Source of the DNA: a virus | IMG/VR virus record: IMGVR_UViG_3300035228_001167 | Coordinates: 1-34,698 of that record | Length of the DNA: 34,698 nucleotides | Reading direction: 5' to 3' (one strand) | Part shown: piece after piece, positions 18,061 through 32,485 of the stretch | Layout: each line of letters begins with the position of its first letter | How positions within the stretch are numbered: position 1 is the stretch's first letter | Program-made: the position numbers and the translations under genes | The notes under the pieces: model-generated | Seen by the model: the letters and a program-made list of their open reading frames with translations, nothing else | Told to the model about the DNA's origin: nothing | The model's database searches: none

Positions 18061-18068
18061 TATAAATA
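18061..18068 (+). promoter_or_regulatory. T4-type late promoter TATAAATA before gp13
   Basis: A perfect late consensus 26 bp before the gp13 ATG. The expected start near 18074 gives a leader of about 21 nt that keeps the AGGGG at 18082-18086. The last three bases of the octamer belong to the 5' arm of the terminator hairpin. Confidence 0.85.
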
Positions 18069-21188: not shown

Positions 21189-22243
21189 TGTTTGGAACTT
21201 ATTTTTATCACGAAATACTAAGAAAGACAATAATTGCTTTCGGTACATTGTTTAATGACATTGAAATTAAACATAAAGATTCTGCCGGTAACGGGTTTAG
21301 TCAATTAAAGGTCCCTATTGCTTACGGACCAATGCAAAAGTTTTTAGCAAGAATTGAACAATCCCCAAATCTTAGGAAAGAAGTTGCAATAACTTTACCT
21401 AGAATGGCTTTTGAGATGGTAGGTATTGCATACGATCCGGTTAGAAAGTCATCAACAATGCAGACTTTTAAGGTTGTAGACCAATCAAATAATAAGATTA
21501 CAAAGGCATTCATGCCTGTTCCTTATAATGTAAATATCAGATTGTCAATTATGACAAAACTGAACGAAGATGCACTGCAGATCGTTGAACAGATATTACC
21601 ATATTTTCAACCTCATTTTAATTTGACTGTTAATTTAGTTGAACAAATCGGAGAAACTAGAGATATTCCAATGGTTCTTAATAGTATCCAAATGGATGAT
21701 GATTATGAGGGAGACTTCACTACCAGAAGATCTTTAGTATATACTTTAGATTTTACTGCGAAGACATATTTGTTTGGTCCAGTTGATACGGGTAACGATA
21801 ATATAATCAAGAAAGTTCAGGTTGATTATTATTCAAATACTAATAAGAAAGGTGCTTCAAGAGAACTTCGTTATGTTGCAACACCAAGAGCTCTTAAAGA
21901 TTACAATTCTGATGGTGCAACTAGATTAGTAGAAAACCTGGCAGAGAATGTAACAGAATTCTCTGTTGAATTTGGTTCAACACTAGTTTCTAAATCTTAT
22001 ATTCAAATTGGTGAAGAAGTGATGTTTATTAGAGAAATTGCTGGTGATCTTATTAAGGTAAATAGAGGTGAGAATGGCACTAGTGCAACTACTCACGAAT
22101 CATCTGATATTATTAATGTAATTAACTCGGAGGACGATGAACTAATTAACCTTGATGATGATTTTGGATTCAATGAATCTACATTCAACTTTAATGACGG
22201 AAAAATTTACAGTACAACTAAACAAACTGATGTAGATCCATGA
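21188..22243 (+). CDS. 15: Tail sheath stabiliser / tail terminator gp15
   Basis: This 351-residue protein (T4 gp15: 272) caps the tail tube and sheath and binds the neck. The start MFGTYFYHEILRKTIIAFGT and the segments LFNDIEIKH, VPIAYGPMQKFLARIEQ and LPRMAFEMVGIAYDP are characteristic. From about residue 245 it carries an extension beyond the T4 length with a YIQIGEEVMFIRE...VNRGENGTSATTHES module, also seen in the truncated tail protein at the left edge. ATG 21188 shares its A with the gp14 stop, and the 3' end overlaps gp16 by 4 nt (ATGA). Confidence 0.93.
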   Translation: MFGTYFYHEILRKTIIAFGTLFNDIEIKHKDSAGNGFSQLKVPIAYGPMQKFLARIEQSPNLRKEVAITLPRMAFEMVGIAYDPVRKSSTMQTFKVVDQSNNKITKAFMPVPYNVNIRLSIMTKLNEDALQIVEQILPYFQPHFNLTVNLVEQIGETRDIPMVLNSIQMDDDYEGDFTTRRSLVYTLDFTAKTYLFGPVDTGNDNIIKKVQVDYYSNTNKKGASRELRYVATPRALKDYNSDGATRLVENLAENVTEFSVEFGSTLVSKSYIQIGEEVMFIREIAGDLIKVNRGENGTSATTHESSDIINVINSEDDELINLDDDFGFNESTFNFNDGKIYSTTKQTDVDP

Positions 22244-22668
22244 AATATGAAGAAATAGATGATGCTTTAGACATTACACCTACTAAGGTTGAGTCTGCAA
22301 AAATTGTCAAAAAAGAATCACAGGTGGTTGAGGTAGTTACTACCACTAAAGAGCAATTAAAAAAAGATTACGATTATACTCGTGGCAATCTTTATTCTTT
22401 AATAGAAAAAGGACAGGAAGCAGTTGATGGTATTCTCGAACTTGCACAAGAATCGGATTCTCCTAGAGCGTTTGAGGTTGCAGGACAATTAATTAAACAC
22501 GTTGGTGATGTTGCAGATAAATTAGTTGATCTTCAAAAAAAAGTAAAAGACATAGAAAAAGAAGATGGAAAATCATCTACGTCCACAAGCGTTACAAATA
22601 ATGCGGTTTTCTTTGGGTCTACAGCGGATCTCCAGAAATTTCTCAAAAATAATGGAGATTCTAAATAG
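22240..22668 (+). CDS. 16: Terminase small subunit gp16
   Basis: The protein has 142 residues (T4 gp16: 164). Its start overlaps the gp15 stop in ATGA, implying coupling. The core (TRGNLYSLIEKGQEAVDGIL, then ARAFEVAG-like SPRAFEVAGQLIKHVGDVAD) matches the T4-type small terminase pattern of helical oligomer domains, flanked by charged, flexible ends (KKVKDIEKEDGKSS). It recognises DNA and regulates the gp17 motor. Unlike in T4, where genes 16 and 17 are adjacent, two genes separate it here from gp17. Confidence 0.88.
   Translation: MKYEEIDDALDITPTKVESAKIVKKESQVVEVVTTTKEQLKKDYDYTRGNLYSLIEKGQEAVDGILELAQESDSPRAFEVAGQLIKHVGDVADKLVDLQKKVKDIEKEDGKSSTSTSVTNNAVFFGSTADLQKFLKNNGDSK
22660..22667 (+). 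promoter_or_regulatory. Weak late-promoter-like TCTAAATA
   Basis: TCTAAATA differs from TATAAATA at one base and overlaps the gp16 stop codon. The same 10-mer TTCTAAATAG occurs before gp18 at 26356-26365. It could drive the 525-aa gene at 22691, but the match alone is weak in AT-rich DNA. Confidence 0.25.
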
Positions 22669-22690: not shown

Positions 22691-24268
22691 ATGACCAAAG
22701 CTAAATCTTGTCCCTCTGGGAAGTACTGGTGCTATACAGATGAGAAATGCAAGAAGATCCCCATGGGATTTTATGTAGGTCGTGGTGGATATTTGTCAAG
22801 AGAAAATGAGGATGGTGAGGAGGGCAAGAAGAAGAATGGTAAGAAGAATGGAAATGGAAATGGTGGAAACGGTGGTAATGGAAACGGTGACTCCAACGGT
22901 GGTGGAGATGGTGGCGGGGGAATGGGCGAAAGTACTATATTAGAAAAACGTGACGGTAAATCTGCCAAGGATAAAGATTATTCTCTTAAAGATTGGTTTA
23001 AGGGTGGCGGATGGAAACAGACTGGTGGTAAGTATGATGGAAAACCATGTGCAAAACAACCAGGACAAAAAACTAAACCATTCTGCCGTGATGCAGATGA
23101 TCGTGCTTCAATGAGTAAAGACGAAAGAAACAGAAGAGCTTCTAAAAAACGCAGAGAAGATCCGAATCCCAACAGAAAAGGAAAAGCAAAAATGGTAACC
23201 GATTCATACGATCTTTCAAACTGGAGAGACGAATTCAAAGCACTTGAATTTGAAACAGTAGACATTATTGGTACAGAACCATTACAACCAACACAGGGTA
23301 TTGGTAGTAAGATGCTTGGTGAGAAATGTTGGAAAGGATATAAGAAAAAAGGTATGAAGACAATGTTTGGTAAGAAATATCCAAACTGTGTAAAAGAAGA
23401 AGAAACAATAGATGAGAAGTGTTGGGACACTCATAAACAAGTTGGTATGAAAAAGAAAGGCGGTAAAATGGTTCCAAATTGTGTTCCCAAGAATGAAGAA
23501 TTGGAAGGTGGGTCAATCGCGGAAGTAAATGCTGGACCAAGCACTCCTGTGAAACAATATGGTGGTAAGTTTATGCCTAATCCTGGTGCTGGTAGACCCG
23601 GTAAGGTTAGATTAAAACCAGGAACCCCTGCAGCATTAAGACTTGCTCATAAAGAGTATTCTGATTGGAAAACTGAAATTTTTGAAGGAGATGGTGATCA
23701 TGAGTATGAAATGGCTCGTCGTCAGTTGGCAACTATTAAAAATGCAGTCTCTCGTCTTGAAAAAAAGATGGGCAAAACTGGAGAAGGCGAACTTAAAGCA
23801 TGGGTTCAATCCAAACTTACTAGATCTGCCGATGACATTGATACAGTTGCAGACTATGTAACTAATGAAGAAACTATTCAAGAAGGTGAAAAAGATGCTT
23901 GTTACCATAAGGTGAAATCACGTTATTCCGTATGGCCTTCTGCATATGCATCTGGAGCATTAGTTAAGTGTCGTAAAGTTGGTGCTGCCAACTGGGGTAA
24001 TAAGAGTAAAACTAAAAAAGAGGAAGTTCAATATTTGAATGTCGAAGACTATCAAAGGATACAGGAATATGGTAATGTGTATACTATAATAGTATTGTGG
24101 AGGGGTAAATCTTATAGATTACAAATTTTCTTCCAGGGAACTCAAAGACCTTCCAAAGATGAAGTAAAACTTGAAGTGGAAAAGATTTATCCAGGTGGAA
24201 TTACAACCTACTACTTCCCCAGTCCCAGTGTCCCAGGTAAACCAATTATTGTTTCTACGAGGAATTAA
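22691..24268 (+). CDS. Cys/Lys/Gly-rich mosaic protein between gp16 and gp17 (525 aa)
   Basis: The protein is built of separate short modules. Residues 6-35 hold a Cys-containing head (SCPSGKYWCYTDEKCKKIP). Residues 46-79 are a Lys then Gly/Asn low-complexity linker. At 99-168 is a basic stretch (SLKDWFKGGGWKQTGGKYDG, SKKRREDPNPNRKGKAK). Two tandem CW-x23-CV-like units lie at 211-234 and 241-265. A helical unit (about 341-394; MARRQLATIK, WVQSKLTRSADDIDTVADY) resembles a module seen in several marine T4-like phage proteins. At 402-432, CYHKVKSRYSVWPSAYASGA resembles the DUF5872-type motif. The C-terminal beta domain (456-525) has GNVYTIIVLWRGKSYRLQIF. No enzymatic site is recognised. The basic modules suggest nucleic-acid or virion-core association; that is inference. 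The stop codon overlaps the next gene's ribosome site. Confidence 0.8.
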   Translation: MTKAKSCPSGKYWCYTDEKCKKIPMGFYVGRGGYLSRENEDGEEGKKKNGKKNGNGNGGNGGNGNGDSNGGGDGGGGMGESTILEKRDGKSAKDKDYSLKDWFKGGGWKQTGGKYDGKPCAKQPGQKTKPFCRDADDRASMSKDERNRRASKKRREDPNPNRKGKAKMVTDSYDLSNWRDEFKALEFETVDIIGTEPLQPTQGIGSKMLGEKCWKGYKKKGMKTMFGKKYPNCVKEEETIDEKCWDTHKQVGMKKKGGKMVPNCVPKNEELEGGSIAEVNAGPSTPVKQYGGKFMPNPGAGRPGKVRLKPGTPAALRLAHKEYSDWKTEIFEGDGDHEYEMARRQLATIKNAVSRLEKKMGKTGEGELKAWVQSKLTRSADDIDTVADYVTNEETIQEGEKDACYHKVKSRYSVWPSAYASGALVKCRKVGAANWGNKSKTKKEEVQYLNVEDYQRIQEYGNVYTIIVLWRGKSYRLQIFFQGTQRPSKDEVKLEVEKIYPGGITTYYFPSPSVPGKPIIVSTRN

Positions 24269-24270
24269 TT

Positions 24271-24438
24271 ATGAGTGATGACATCGAACTTTTAAATTTA
24301 AGTAGAGCACTTGAGTATGAACGACAGTCCAGATCGATTGATAAAATGGATTTGGATCAGGCTAGAGAGTTTGCAAAATCTTATTTAAAATTGTATCTGA
24401 AACAACAAGAAGTAGTACTTAGTATGGCAACCATGTGA
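24271..24438 (+). CDS. 55-aa helical protein, possibly NblA-like phycobilisome-degradation adaptor
   Basis: ATG 24271 follows a strong GAGGAA (24259-24264) at good spacing and starts 2 nt after the previous stop; TGA 24436-24438 lies 4 nt before gp17. The 55 residues read MSDDIELLNLSRALEYERQS, then RSIDKMDLDQAREFAKSYLK, then LYLKQQEVVLSMATM. This is a short first helix, a turn at DKMD and a long second helix. NblA proteins have about the same size and layout: an EL-S-LEQQF helix, a turn, then S-x-(E/D)-QA-x-(E/D)-(F/L) and a long helix ending in a hydrophobic/KDN segment. The DLDQAREF stretch fits best. NblA is established in some cyanophages, where it targets phycobilisomes for proteolysis. 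The match here is by eye, so a small terminase accessory remains possible. Confidence 0.8.
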   Translation: MSDDIELLNLSRALEYERQSRSIDKMDLDQAREFAKSYLKLYLKQQEVVLSMATM

Positions 24439-24442
24439 TTTT

Positions 24443-26089
24443 ATGAGTGAAGTATATCTTGGTAATCCTAATCTAAAAAAAGCAAATACTCCAATTGAAT
24501 TTACTGAGGAACAAGTTATTGAGTTCCTTAAATGTAAAGACAATCCTGTTTATTTTGCTAACAAATATATTAAAATTGTCTCTTTGGATGAGGGTCTTAC
24601 TCAGTTTCATCCATATGACTTTCAAGAAAAGTTAATTAATAACTTTCATGAAAACAGATTTAATATCTGTAAGATGCCACGACAGACTGGTAAGTCTACT
24701 ACTGTGGTATCATATCTATTACATTATGCTGTTTTTAACGATAGTGTAAACATTGGCATCCTTGCTAACAAAGCAGCGACTGCTAGAGAACTTCTAGGAA
24801 GGTTACAAACCGCATATGAGAACTTACCAAAATGGATGCAACAGGGTATTATAGCCTGGAACAAAGGATCAATGGAGTTGGAAAATGGCAGTAAGATATT
24901 GGCAGCTTCTACGTCTGCAAGTGCTGTCCGAGGCATGTCGTTCAACATCCTCTTCCTCGACGAATTCGCATTCGTTCCAAACCATGTTGCAGACTCGTTC
25001 TTTGCATCTGTTTATCCTACTATTACTTCTGGTAAAAACACCAAAGTAATTATTGTATCTACACCACACGGTATGAATCACTTCTACCGTCTATGGCATG
25101 ATGCAGAAAAAAGAAAGAATGATTATATTCCTACTGATGTTCATTGGTCCGAAGTTCCTGGTAGGGATTTGGAGTGGAAAGAACAGACTATCAAAAATAC
25201 ATCAGAACAACAGTTCAAGGTGGAGTTTGAGTGTGAGTTCTTAGGATCTATTGATACTTTGATTTCTGCAGCGAAATTGAAGTCGATGGTCTATGACGAT
25301 CCTATTACTAGAAATGCAGGACTAGATGTTTACAAAGAACCGATAGAAGATCACACATATGTCGTTACAGTTGACGTTGCAAGAGGTGTGGATAAAGACT
25401 ATTCAGCATTTTGTGTGTGCGACACAACAACATTTCCATATACATTAGTTGCCAAGTATAGAAATAATTCTATTAAGCCAATTCTATTCCCAAACATTAT
25501 TAGAAATGTTGCAAAAGCATATAATCAAGCATTTATATTAGTTGAAGTTAATGATATTGGAGATCAAGTAGCATCCATTATTCATATGGACTTGGAATAT
25601 GAGAACATACTTATGTGTTCTATGAGAGGTCGTGCAGGTCAAGTAGTTGGTCAAGGATTTTCTGGTAAGAAAACACAGTTGGGTGTCAAAATGTCCAAAA
25701 CTGTAAAGAAGATAGGATCACTAAATTTAAAGGCATTACTTGAAGATGACAAATTAATCGTATCCGATTTAGATGTAATTAGTGAATTGACCACATTTAT
25801 TCAAAAGTCGGGATCTTTTGAAGCAGAAGAAGGTTGCAATGATGACCTGGCTATGTGTCTTGTAATTTTTGCATGGTTAGTTCAACAAGACTATTTCAAA
25901 GAAATGACGGATAATGATGTTCGTAAAAAAATATATGAGGACCAAAGGGACCAGATAGAAGCTGACATGGCTCCCTTTGGATTTATTAGTGATGGTTTAG
26001 ATGATGAATCATCTATTGTAGACAATGATGGCACTCTTTGGAAAACCGATGAATATGGAGATATATCATACATGTGGGAATACCACTGA
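24443..26089 (+). CDS. 17: Terminase large subunit gp17 (packaging ATPase-nuclease)
   Basis: The protein has 548 residues (T4 gp17: 610). The ATPase domain shows Walker A PRQTGKST (residues 79-86), Walker B ILFLDEF with catalytic Glu (169-175) and the coupling motif STPHGMN (206-212). The nuclease domain has VTVDVARGVDKDYSAF with the catalytic Asp at about 311, then LVEVNDIGDQ and a late acidic pair in CNDDLAM. It drives DNA into the prohead through the gp20 portal and cuts the concatemer. ATG 24443 follows the small gene by 4 nt with only a weak ribosome site, suggesting coupled translation. Its stop shares a base with the next gene's ATG (TGATG at 26087-26091). Confidence 0.97.
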   Translation: MSEVYLGNPNLKKANTPIEFTEEQVIEFLKCKDNPVYFANKYIKIVSLDEGLTQFHPYDFQEKLINNFHENRFNICKMPRQTGKSTTVVSYLLHYAVFNDSVNIGILANKAATARELLGRLQTAYENLPKWMQQGIIAWNKGSMELENGSKILAASTSASAVRGMSFNILFLDEFAFVPNHVADSFFASVYPTITSGKNTKVIIVSTPHGMNHFYRLWHDAEKRKNDYIPTDVHWSEVPGRDLEWKEQTIKNTSEQQFKVEFECEFLGSIDTLISAAKLKSMVYDDPITRNAGLDVYKEPIEDHTYVVTVDVARGVDKDYSAFCVCDTTTFPYTLVAKYRNNSIKPILFPNIIRNVAKAYNQAFILVEVNDIGDQVASIIHMDLEYENILMCSMRGRAGQVVGQGFSGKKTQLGVKMSKTVKKIGSLNLKALLEDDKLIVSDLDVISELTTFIQKSGSFEAEEGCNDDLAMCLVIFAWLVQQDYFKEMTDNDVRKKIYEDQRDQIEADMAPFGFISDGLDDESSIVDNDGTLWKTDEYGDISYMWEYH

Positions 26090-26316
26090 TGACTTTTGAA
26101 AAATCATTTGAATTAGAGCACCTATTTCTTAATGAAAGGAAATGCAGATCTTGCGGTCAGATGAAAAATTTATTGAATGATTTTTATCTAACTAGAAAAG
26201 ATCGAGGCACTTTACCCTCTGCATATTCATATGAATGTAAAGAATGTACTGTGCAAAGAGTTAGAATATCGCGAACCAAAAACAAACAAGTAACTTGGGA
26301 ATATCCTGATTGGTAG
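26089..26316 (+). CDS. Small four-cysteine zinc-ribbon protein (75 aa)
   Basis: ATG 26089 overlaps the gp17 stop and is preferred to an in-frame GTG at 26074, which lies inside gp17. The protein has C19-x-x-C22 and C50-x-x-C53 with the typical pattern RKCRSCGQMKNLLNDFY...YECKECTVQR, followed by a basic tail and the ending WEYPDW. The CxxCG-K-x-FY...CxxC layout is shared with small zinc-ribbon proteins, often found near phage HNH nucleases, but no HNH residues are present. T4 has no gene at this place between 17 and 18. A nucleic-acid-binding or packaging-accessory role is possible; no function is established. Confidence 0.85.
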   Translation: MTFEKSFELEHLFLNERKCRSCGQMKNLLNDFYLTRKDRGTLPSAYSYECKECTVQRVRISRTKNKQVTWEYPDW

Positions 26317-29589: not shown

Positions 29590-31239
29590 ATGCCTAAATT
29601 ATTTGGTTTTAAATTCAAGGAAGACGACGGATCTAAAAAGTCCGTCGTTTCTCCTGTGCCGGAGAATAAAGAAGATTCTTCAGATTATTATGTTTCTAGT
29701 GGTTTTTACGGTCAGTACGTAGATATTGAGGGTGTATATAAATCTGAGTTTGATTTAATTAAAAGATATCGAGAAATGGCATTACATCCTGAGGTGGATG
29801 GAGCTATTGAAGATGTTGTAAACGAAGCAATTGTTTCGGATCAAAATGATTCTCCTGTGGAGATTGATCTGGAAAACGCACCGTGTACAGATAAACTTAA
29901 AAATTTAATTAGAGAAGAATTTAAAAATATTAAATCTTTACTACACTTTGATGATAGGTGTCATGAGATTTTAAGGAATTGGTATGTTGATGGACGTATC
30001 TACTACCACAAAGTAATAGATTTTGATAGACCTCAAGAAGGAATTAAAGAACTAAGATACATAGATCCACAAAAGATTCGTCACATTAGAAGAATCAAAA
30101 AAGATAAAAGTAATCCACTGGGTCCAGCAGTTTCAAGTGTAAAAGGTAACGAAGCTGTCAATCCACAAATTGAGGAATACTATGAGTATGATCCAAACGG
30201 ACGTATGGGTAATACCAGTGGATCATTCAAAACGGGCGCAGGTTCTGTAACAAAAATATCAAAAGATGCGATTACTTACGTACACTCAGGTTTAGTAGAT
30301 AGAAACAAAAATACAGTTCTTTCATATCTCCACAAAGCAATTAAGGCACTCAATCAACTTAGAATGATTGAAGATTCCCTAGTGATTTATAGAATGTCAC
30401 GCGCTCCTGAGCGTAGAATTTTCTATATTGATGTTGGTAATCTACCAAAGATTAAAGCAGAACAATACCTGCGTGAGGTCATGAATCGGTATCGTAATAA
30501 GTTGGTTTACGATGCAAATACTGGAGAAGTTCGTGACGATCGTAAGATGATGAGTATGCTAGAGGATTTCTGGCTTCCTCGTCGCGAAGGTGGTCGTGGA
30601 ACTGAAATCACAACTCTTCCCGGTGGTCAAAATTTAGGAGAACTCGCTGATATTGAGTATTTCCAAAAGAAACTTTATAGAGCATTAGGTGTACCTGAGT
30701 CTAGACTTGCATCTAGTGGTGGTTTCAATCTTGGTCGTTCTTCTGAAATTTTAAGAGACGAAATTAAGTTTACTAAATTTGTTGGAAGAATGAGAAAAAG
30801 ATTCTCACAAATCTTCCATGATATGTTGAGAACTCAATTACTTCTCAAGAACATTGTTTCTATTGAGGATTGGGATTCTATTTCAGAACATGTTCAATAT
30901 GATTATGTTTATGATAATCACTTCTCAGAGTTGAAAGAGAATGAATTGATGAATGAAAGAGTTCAAACAGCTGCTTCTCTTGAACCTTATGTTGGTAGGT
31001 ATTACTCTGCAGATTATGTCAGAAGACGCATTTTCAAACAAACTGATCAACAAATAATTGAGTTAGATAAACAAATTAAAAAAGAAATTGCATCAGGAAT
31101 TATTCCAGACCCAGCGGCACCTGTTGATCCCCAAACTGGGATGCCTTTAGATACCACTAATCTCGGATCAGGTGGTTCTCCACAAGATCCAGAAATTGAT
31201 GGATCTGCCACCGAAGTACCCGATGGTGGCGAGATATAA
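29590..31239 (+). CDS. 20: Portal vertex protein gp20
   Basis: The protein has 549 residues (T4 gp20: 524). Typical stretches are KRYREMALHPEVDGAIEDVV, NEAIVSDQNDSPVEIDLEN, RNWYVDGRIYYHKVID, RYIDPQKIRHIRR, RMSRAPERRIFYIDVGNLPK, EDFWLPRREGGRGTEITTLP and LGVPESRLASSGGFNLGRSS. The last three are among the most conserved gp20 sites used as marine myovirus markers. It forms the twelve-fold portal for DNA entry and exit and nucleates prohead assembly. The C-terminal 45 residues are Pro/Gly/Asp-rich and probably flexible. The stop TAA (31237-31239) lies within the next TATAAATA. Confidence 0.97.
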   Translation: MPKLFGFKFKEDDGSKKSVVSPVPENKEDSSDYYVSSGFYGQYVDIEGVYKSEFDLIKRYREMALHPEVDGAIEDVVNEAIVSDQNDSPVEIDLENAPCTDKLKNLIREEFKNIKSLLHFDDRCHEILRNWYVDGRIYYHKVIDFDRPQEGIKELRYIDPQKIRHIRRIKKDKSNPLGPAVSSVKGNEAVNPQIEEYYEYDPNGRMGNTSGSFKTGAGSVTKISKDAITYVHSGLVDRNKNTVLSYLHKAIKALNQLRMIEDSLVIYRMSRAPERRIFYIDVGNLPKIKAEQYLREVMNRYRNKLVYDANTGEVRDDRKMMSMLEDFWLPRREGGRGTEITTLPGGQNLGELADIEYFQKKLYRALGVPESRLASSGGFNLGRSSEILRDEIKFTKFVGRMRKRFSQIFHDMLRTQLLLKNIVSIEDWDSISEHVQYDYVYDNHFSELKENELMNERVQTAASLEPYVGRYYSADYVRRRIFKQTDQQIIELDKQIKKEIASGIIPDPAAPVDPQTGMPLDTTNLGSGGSPQDPEIDGSATEVPDGGEI

Positions 31240-31242
31240 ATA
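31235..31242 (+). promoter_or_regulatory. T4-type late promoter TATAAATA before the prohead core genes
   Basis: A perfect consensus overlapping the gp20 stop, 27 bp before the gp67 ATG; no clear Shine-Dalgarno follows. AAATAAT (31238-31244) and ATTATTT (31256-31262) form an exact but all-A/T inverted repeat with an 11-nt loop, which is weak. Confidence 0.75.
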
Positions 31243-31269
31243 ATTTCAGTTACTTATTATTTTAAAAAT

Positions 31270-31527
31270 ATGGACGACGTAGTTGATATGATTGCTCAAG
31301 GTGCTTCGGCATCTGAAGTTAGTGATCGTTTGAAAGACATTTTGATGCAGAAATCTGCTGCAAACATTGATGAGGTAAGACCAAAAGTCGCTTCTTCAAT
31401 GTTTGGTGCAACGGCTGCAGAAGTTCAGGCTGACGCAGAGGCTGCGGCTGAAACTGAAGAAGAGGAAACTCCAGAAGCTTCTGCAGAAACAGAGGAAGAA
31501 CCAACTCCAGAAGAGGAAACTGACTAA
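31270..31527 (+). CDS. 67: Prohead core protein gp67-like
   Basis: The protein has 85 residues, close to T4 gp67 (80), directly between gp20 and the protease as in T4. The N-terminal part is helical (MDDVVDMIAQGASASEVSDR, LKDILMQKSAANIDEVRP), and the C-terminal 40 residues are almost all Glu, Ala, Thr and Pro. T4 gp67 is a core component with an acidic tail that is cut to small internal peptides by gp21; the acidic tail here fits that. The last base of its stop is the first base of the next gene's ATG. The assignment rests on position, size and composition more than on identity. Confidence 0.8.
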   Translation: MDDVVDMIAQGASASEVSDRLKDILMQKSAANIDEVRPKVASSMFGATAAEVQADAEAAAETEEEETPEASAETEEEPTPEEETD

Positions 31528-31799
31528 TGTCGTATATCCGCCACGATAGTAATAACAATCAATCAAATCCACAACCAGGAGTTACTACTGTTTCTTATCT
31601 TGGCGGTACGACTGGATGGTCAACTGTAACCTATCAAAATTTTAATTCTGATTACATCGCATATACTTACAACAGTAATGCTGGGGTAGGAACCAGAACT
31701 CCTGCTTCATATCAACGTCATAATGATAGTAATCAATCAGTTGGTGTGGGTACTTATCAAAGACACGATTCTAGTAATAACCCCATAACTAGTCCATAG
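31527..31799 (+). CDS. Small Tyr/Asn/Ser-rich repeat protein in the gp68 position (90 aa)
   Basis: I do not recognise this family. ATG 31527 overlaps the preceding stop (TAATG), so it is probably co-translated with the gp67-like gene. The sequence carries three copies of a short motif: YIRHDSNNNQ (residues 3-12), YQRHNDSNQS (62-71) and YQRHDSSNNP (77-86), with a Tyr/Gly/Thr-rich middle (YLGGTTGWSTVTYQNFN). It is uncharged apart from the motif His/Arg/Asp residues, unlike the basic T4 gp68 core protein that occupies this place, so homology to gp68 is doubtful. A prohead or virion role is inferred only from the operon. Confidence 0.75.
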   Translation: MSYIRHDSNNNQSNPQPGVTTVSYLGGTTGWSTVTYQNFNSDYIAYTYNSNAGVGTRTPASYQRHNDSNQSVGVGTYQRHDSSNNPITSP

Positions 31800-31800
31800 T

Positions 31801-31808
31801 CATAAATA
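31801..31808 (+). promoter_or_regulatory. Putative late promoter CATAAATA before gp21
   Basis: It fits NATAAATA and lies 26 bp before the gp21 ATG, just after the upstream stop. Only a 4-bp inverted repeat (AGTC/GACT) surrounds it. Confidence 0.55.
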
Positions 31809-31834
31809 AAATATAAGACTCTACCAATAGTGAT

Positions 31835-32485
31835 ATGAAACTAATCAGGGAAGAAATAGAGAGTGTAGACGTTATCGTCGAATCTAGGGGTGGAAAAAAA
31901 TCCCTTTACATCGAAGGTGTATTTCTACAAGGCGGAATCAAGAACCGTAATGGTCGCATGTATCCCGTCGAAACTCTAGCAAAAGAAGTACATCGTTATA
32001 ACGAAAGTTTTACAGGAAAGGGTCGTGCTTTAGGTGAGTTGGGTCACCCCGATGGTCCTACTGTAAATCTAGAACGTGTTTCTCACAAGATCACGATGCT
32101 TGAACAGAGAGGTGATAACTTCTATGGAAAAGCAAAAATCCTTTCTACTCCTATGGGTAAAATTGCACAGTCACTTTTAGGTGAAGGTGTAAAACTAGGA
32201 GTTTCTTCCCGTGGTATTGGTTCACTAAAAGAAGATAGTGATGGATGCAAAGTTGTCGGTGAAGATTTTATGTTGGCAACTGCTGCTGACATCGTAGCAG
32301 ATCCTTCTGCACCTGATGCTTTTGTTGATGGAATTATGGAAGGAAAAGAGTGGGTATGGGAAGGAAGTATCCTTCGCGAAAGAAAAGCAGAAATGTTTAA
32401 GACCCGTATAAATACCCTAGTAGACCAAGGAAGTCTTGATGAACAGAAGTTAAATCTGTTTAATGACTTCATTTCTAGTCTATAA
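31835..32485 (+). CDS. 21: Prohead core protease gp21
   Basis: The protein has 216 residues, near T4 gp21 (212). The start MKLIREEIESVDVIVESRGG is followed by LYIEGVFLQGGIKNRNGRMY. The His of the active site lies in GELGHPDGP (H71) and the Ser in KLGVSSRGIG (S124/S125), with an Asp-containing ADIVADPSAPDAFVDG segment after it, in keeping with the herpesvirus-like serine protease fold of phage prohead proteases. It cleaves core and capsid proteins before DNA packaging. The stop codon lies inside a hairpin at 32481-32501. A TATAAATA also occurs inside the coding sequence at 32407, where codon choice alone could produce it. Confidence 0.96.
   Translation: MKLIREEIESVDVIVESRGGKKSLYIEGVFLQGGIKNRNGRMYPVETLAKEVHRYNESFTGKGRALGELGHPDGPTVNLERVSHKITMLEQRGDNFYGKAKILSTPMGKIAQSLLGEGVKLGVSSRGIGSLKEDSDGCKVVGEDFMLATAADIVADPSAPDAFVDGIMEGKEWVWEGSILRERKAEMFKTRINTLVDQGSLDEQKLNLFNDFISSL

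Follow-up and report, generated by a model that had tools for sequence, protein, structure and literature searches.

The window, by which we mean the whole stretch of viral DNA analysed here (34,698 bases), comes from a T4-like cyanophage and covers part of its structural region. The genes of the window run in the order gp13 (18095), gp14, gp15, gp16, a 525-aa gene, a 55-aa open reading frame (ORF), gp17, the gene of an 80-aa protein, gp18 and gp19, and the 55-aa gene is separated by 2 nt from the 525-aa gene upstream and by 4 nt from gp17 downstream (Table 1). Family scans were run on the 55-aa ORF, the 525-aa protein, gp16 and gp17, while the other genes of the window were named from gene order and from similarity to phages S-SCSM2R and S-SM2. 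The sequence-only reading had placed the small gene between two packaging genes, which holds for the downstream side, where gp17 follows, but not for the upstream side, where the neighbour is the phrog_727 protein and gp16 lies one gene further away.

Table 1. Features of the window around the 55-aa gene.
Feature	Position	Strand	Basis or remark
55-aa NblA-like protein (phrog_27081 family)	24271..24438	+	ORF from ATG to TGA, 55 codons
GAGGA ribosome-binding site of the 55-aa gene	24259..24263	+	sequence; 7 nt 5' of ATG
gp17, large terminase subunit	24443..26089	+	PF03237, PF17289, phrog_2; 83.5% identity to S-SM2 gp17
525-aa protein, no known function	22691..24268	+	phrog_727 (E 9.3e-61), no Pfam match
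gp16, small terminase subunit	22240..22668	+	phrog_445 (E 3.8e-53), PF11053
TATAAATA, T4-late-promoter-like element 5' of gp13	18061..18068	+	pattern match, without chance expectation
CTAAATA at the end of gp16, weaker late-promoter-like match	22661..22667	+	pattern match, without chance expectation

The element TATAAATA at 18061 is the putative start of a late block running from gp13 to gp17, and the CTAAATA at the end of gp16 is presumably a variant of the same late-promoter motif. Taken together, the 2- and 4-nt gaps and the element 5' of gp13 would make late co-transcription the likely mode of expression of the 55-aa gene. The consensus of the T4 late promoter is TATAAAT, as quoted in a passage of PMC3037559.

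Other features of the surroundings were also recorded. The 525-aa protein carries a Gly/Asn/Lys-rich stretch near its start and gives partial matches to many PHROGs of unknown function, and the gene at its place varies much in length among relatives (724 aa in S-SCSM2R). The 80-aa protein (26074-26316, plus strand) is cysteine-rich, and the first 16 nt of its gene lie within the end of gp17; at this place, S-SCSM2R has a gene named 'PacI protein' and one RefSeq copy of S-SM2 a gene named 'endonuclease VII'. Further downstream, a gap of 595 bp (31240-31834) that holds no ORF of 100 aa separates the gene at 29590-31239 from that at 31835-32485. Late-promoter-like ATAAATA matches occur at 31235 and 31801, and the gap probably holds small head genes.

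The 55-aa ORF is a real coding gene under purifying selection, with pN of 0.16-0.18 and pS of 0.47-0.87 against six orthologues. Together with the ribosome-binding site, these values uphold its earlier description as a 55-residue gene with a ribosome site of its own. Its product matches a single PHROG, phrog_27081 (E 5.7e-16, function unknown), which was matched by 24/24 members of the family profile, A2. By tblastn, relatives were found in 25 annotated phage records, 22 with the window protein as query and three more (Sf-FS3, Sf-CH5 and Sf-CH8) with the S-SM2 member, corresponding to 19 distinct phages once GenBank/RefSeq doubles are removed; matches in S-CRM01 (two records, E 3) and in two Vibrio phages (E 2) were left uncounted. 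Whole-record profile searches returned a single full-length family copy in each of 10/10 annotated carrier records. Among the matches listed in a motif scan of IMG/VR, 496 of 600 stretches were confirmed as family relatives, and the IMG/VR matches listed also include five orthologues (L098-L102) that are 73-78% identical to the window protein. At one IMG/VR locus (L060, 1340-1741) the NblA-like part makes up the N-terminal half of an open frame of 133 aa and is followed by an additional C-terminal stretch; this is either a fusion or an assembly error.

Some of these relatives already carry the name of NblA, a small protein that induces cyanobacteria to take apart their light-harvesting antennae. 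The NblA of phage S-SCSM2R (PQ898602.1, XQU50031.1) has 55 aa and shares 74.5% identity with the window protein over the full length. Its gene lies in the same region, after the hypothetical gene on the gp16 side and before gp17, but with a 91-aa gene between nblA and gp17, whereas in the window gp17 is directly next. No paper on S-SCSM2R was found, and its NblA name is a deposited annotation. The NblA of S-SCSM1 (QFG06501.1) belongs to the same family, with 49% identity over residues 2-49; unlike the window gene, it adjoins helicase and oxygenase genes outside the gp13-gp17 block. According to passages of PMC9602691, the S-SCSM1 gene was called by HHpred and has seven cyanomyovirus homologues, the nblA of S-TIM5 was predicted by Nadel et al. 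2019, and phycobilin is lost upon expression of freshwater phage NblA and of NblA from marine viral metagenomes. The freshwater phage proteins (Ma-LMM01, MaMV-DC and PaV-LD) are small phage-borne NblA like the window family, and phycobilin loss on infection or expression is described for freshwater phage NblA in parts of PMC9602691 and PMC5780444. Unlike the window family, they exceed the PF04485 cut-off, at 45-52 bits, and the family profile A2 found no match in the records of these three phages. In 2010, a passage of PMC3037559 stated that marine cyanophages had not been seen to carry nblA. With the S-SCSM1 gene published and the S-SCSM2R gene annotated as NblA, the window gene adds a new member to a phage group already in the literature and is not a new find.

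The core MDLDQAREF, from which the sequence-only reading had argued for NblA, occupies residues 26-34 of the window protein and does align with MSHDQAKDF of Anabaena NblA, a sequence matched to 1ojh_A. Its 'QA', however, is no feature of the family: over 115 aligned proteins, a set from which one of 151 tblastn loci was left out by a start/length rule, position 30 is mostly E (52, against 24 Q) and position 31 mostly L (70, against 34 A). Invariant in the 115 proteins and in the 24 A2 rows are I5, K40, L41, Y42, Q46 and E47; many A2 rows were fetched by the KLYxKQQE motif, and the 11 annotated-phage rows fetched without it show the same invariant residues. The second helix of the window protein carries KLYLKQQE, in agreement with the family pattern KLYxKQQE, a motif that NblA lacks and at whose place it varies. 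The N-terminal LxxEQ, in contrast, is a feature of NblA (invariant in 11 NblA rows) of which the phage family keeps the leucine only. The C-terminal region is longer in NblA, while that of the phage family differs in sequence and mostly ends earlier; it is through its C-terminus that NblA contacts phycobilisomes, according to a passage of PMC7760959.

In the predicted model, the window protein forms helices at 10-24 and 28-54 (pLDDT 87.8, pTM 0.58), and the control model of a true NblA has helices at 8-21 and 26-54, plus an additional short helix at the end (pLDDT 78.3). The predicted two-helix layout, which had been proposed from the sequence, is the same as in this control model of cyanobacterial NblA (PF04485; 1ojh, 2q8v, 3cs5), the lengths being 55 and about 60 aa. 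Foldseek searches of PDB and BFVD, as well as VIA, returned nothing useful for the window model, a negative that carries no weight because the PDB search also missed NblA for the true NblA control.

Tools that compare a sequence with a single profile gave no NblA match. The window protein had no match to PF04485 in a Pfam scan (E 10), and in whole-record scans 0/11 family-carrying records rose above the PF04485 gathering cut-off, which was passed in 7/18 records, namely Ma-LMM01, MaMV-DC, PaV-LD and four cyanobacterial plasmids (7/7 NblA controls). The sole PF04485 match in the carrier records is a broken frame elsewhere in S-TIM54 (E 0.019). When the members were scanned singly, 1/24 matched PF04485, at an E of 0.0053 that is noise level, as an unrelated family reaches 0.0035. 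NCBIfam gave scattered weak matches, none of them NblA, and a sequence search of the PDB gave no match for the window protein and one chance match for A2 (3wis, E 0.24). Anabaena NblA as a tblastn query found no cyanophage, its only match being a Vibrio phage at E 4, so plain BLAST misses known phage NblA too. Since the single-profile tools gave no NblA match, an independent NblA profile was built from 15 sequences (three from the PDB, three from plasmids, three from freshwater phages and six from IMG/VR) and compared by hhalign, the E-values of which are those of single comparisons without library correction.

Against this profile the family scored 22.9-25.0, with a probability of 47-57%. A score of 22.9 was reached by 0/300 column shuffles (maximum 17.45) and 0/300 heptad-keeping shuffles (maximum 20.07) of the NblA profile, and the reversed NblA profile scored 12.0 against the family. 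When 66 small-ORF clusters from 176 loci were compared with the profile, NblA scored 188, the family 23.9 and the best of the other 64 clusters 13.3. Taken alone, the window ORF scored 25.0 (65%) and ranked first of 64 window ORFs, the next reaching 14.8, and the S-SCSM2R orthologue scored 31.1 (89%). The predicted profile similarity to NblA was thus recovered above a background of 600 shuffles and 64 other clusters, and the family profile resembles NblA specifically.

Two results of the same comparison count against an NblA-like adaptor. When 1842 ORFs were ranked singly, 12 NblA and 38/113 family ORFs filled the top 50 places and an unrelated one came 51st (18.2), which leaves 75/113 family ORFs below the first unrelated ORF, out of 1717 other ORFs (the truncated family member L121 being classed among the 'other'). 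Moreover, when hhalign was forced to align globally, the probability fell, for the family to 10.7% and for the window protein to 20.1%; the local alignments lie mostly in the first helix, the turn and the beginning of the second helix, over 37 or 48 columns for the family and 22 for the window protein alone.

The gene occupies two recurrent places. We call gp13 slot the interval between VrlC or GC112 and gp13, and gp17 slot the place after a phrog_727-like gene or before gp17. Of 150 fetched loci, among them near copies and some contigs that were retrieved twice, 101 have the gene in the gp13 slot, 41 in the gp17 slot and 8 elsewhere; the 115 distinct proteins divide into 81, 26 and 8. The loci outside both slots are those of S-TIM5, where the member adjoins tRNA and glutaredoxin genes, S-TIM54, S-SCSM1, S-SKS1, S-B43, DSL-LC03 and two IMG/VR contigs. 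The IMG/VR loci are a non-random sample, made up of 59 motif-found loci and the best 80 of 496 motif-found relatives, and the 11 annotated-phage loci fetched for the family, all of them part of the count, are on their own far less one-sided (4 gp13 slot, 1 gp17 slot, 6 elsewhere), so the strong bias towards the late block stems from the motif-fetched IMG/VR loci. A strict-motif scan of genome contigs yielded 2/36 stretches as relatives, both in MAGs labelled Euryarchaeota (L071, NZRR01000014.1; L072, NHGE01000016.1); both have the gene in the gp13 slot, which suggests cyanophage DNA misbinned into archaeal genomes.

On the tree of the 115 proteins, 8 changes are needed among the three kinds of place, where 2 is the minimum possible, and the branches with good support require 3 or more changes for the gp17 slot; the tree was built on 59 columns and 115 rows, and 47 of its 112 inner branches are open. 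The gene behaves like independent cargo moved between slots. The median score against the NblA profile was 24.7 for the 26 gp17-slot proteins, 13.0 for the 81 gp13-slot proteins and 13.9 for 6 proteins elsewhere, with unrelated ORFs reaching 12.2 at the 95th and 14.5 at the 99th percentile. The resemblance to NblA is therefore strongest in the clade that contains the window, and for the gp13-slot proteins, whose median is near background, the link to NblA is one of family kinship more than of direct similarity. No description of the late-block placement was found in the passages of PMC9602691 or of the cyanophage literature searched, a literature that here excludes Nadel 2019, and we do not claim the placement as unpublished.

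The listed host of the annotated carrier records is Synechococcus in 25/25, although S-SCSM1 is reported to infect Prochlorococcus too. A family profile search found full-length homologues in 0/9 T4-like phages of Prochlorococcus (P-SSM2, P-SSM4, P-HM1, P-TIM68, P-TIM40, P-RSM4 and P-SSM7), Pelagibacter (HTVC008M) and Methylophilales (Melnitz), the sole partial match being one of 12 residues in P-SSM4 (E 0.037). Close homologues in a phage whose host lacks phycobilisomes, such as SAR11, had been named beforehand as an observation that would speak against NblA, and none appeared among these nine. As a base for the host comparison, GC112, a late-block neighbour, occurs in 22 records named Prochlorococcus and in 259 named Synechococcus or Cyanophage; on the assumption that the carriers belong among the GC112 records, about two Prochlorococcus-named records would be expected among the 25 carriers, and there are 0. 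With so small an expectation the zero is non-significant, and the host correlation is consistent but statistically weak. Most Synechococcus phages also lack the gene.

The window gene is assigned to the cyanomyovirus NblA-like family (phrog_27081; S-SCSM1, S-SCSM2R, S-TIM5). It is not filed under PF04485, because the cut-off is not reached and the N-terminal signature is absent, a result that weakens membership of the Pfam NblA family and not NblA-like working. The profile tests and the S-SCSM2R orthologue annotated NblA support the NblA-like reading overall, and we consider it probable that the product of the window gene is a distant NblA-like adaptor for proteolysis, carried by a T4-like Synechococcus phage; its activity and late timing we infer. 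The gene would be transcribed late with the neck and packaging genes, and its product would fold and dimerise like NblA and bridge phycobiliproteins and the ClpC chaperone. The adaptor would thereby trigger breakdown of the antenna while particles are being built, which would release amino acids for virion protein and reduce light input.

Alternatively, the gene may encode a small late accessory of assembly or packaging, a helical hairpin that would resemble NblA remotely or by convergence, have no role at the phycobilisome and find its binding partners among the neck, tail or terminase proteins. The gene stands beside gp13 or gp17 in 142/150 fetched loci, the six residues invariant in the 115 proteins and the 11 annotated-phage A2 rows are unlike NblA, and there is no Pfam NblA match. 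We nevertheless regard such an accessory as unlikely, because the gene changes place (8 changes, at least 3 of them forced for the gp17 slot) and lies outside both slots in 8 loci, because its similarity to NblA is well over that of the 64 other small-protein clusters, and because it is absent in full length from 9/9 T4-like phages of Prochlorococcus, Pelagibacter and Methylophilales.

Less likely again, and in our judgement quite improbable, is a protein derived from NblA that has taken up a different job, with the hairpin kept and the usual C-terminal contact lost. The near-invariant second-helix motif, at a place where NblA varies, fits this idea, as does the absence, from the phage family, of the C-terminal region with which NblA touches phycobilisomes according to a passage of PMC7760959. 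Such a protein might pair with host NblA or ClpC and block antenna breakdown, an interference that is conceivable since the title of a cited work reports NblA1/NblA2 heterodimers in Synechocystis; alternatively, its KLYxKQQE face might send another host protein to the Clp protease. The annotated carriers, all of Synechococcus, nevertheless fit the antenna as target at least as well. Marine phycobilisomes are unlike freshwater ones, a difference that could explain an altered interface without an altered job.

Beyond the NblA-like adaptor itself, a wider proposal can be put forward tentatively, as one that we hold to be possible but not the likelier outcome: the family may be a derived branch of NblA that has a KLYxKQQE interface of its own, borne as a late gene in two interchangeable virion-assembly slots and far commoner in uncultured phages than the isolates suggest. 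Loss of the antenna, or degradation of another Clp target, would then be timed to capsid building, when the demand for amino acids peaks and light harvesting is least needed. The placement beside gp13 or gp17 makes this timing testable in cultured carriers such as S-SM2, Bellamy or S-SRM01. Cyanophages are usually thought to support the photosynthesis of their hosts with genes such as psbA. If a gene for antenna degradation sits in the late block, this would mean that the virus goes over from preserving the light-harvesting machinery to consuming it.
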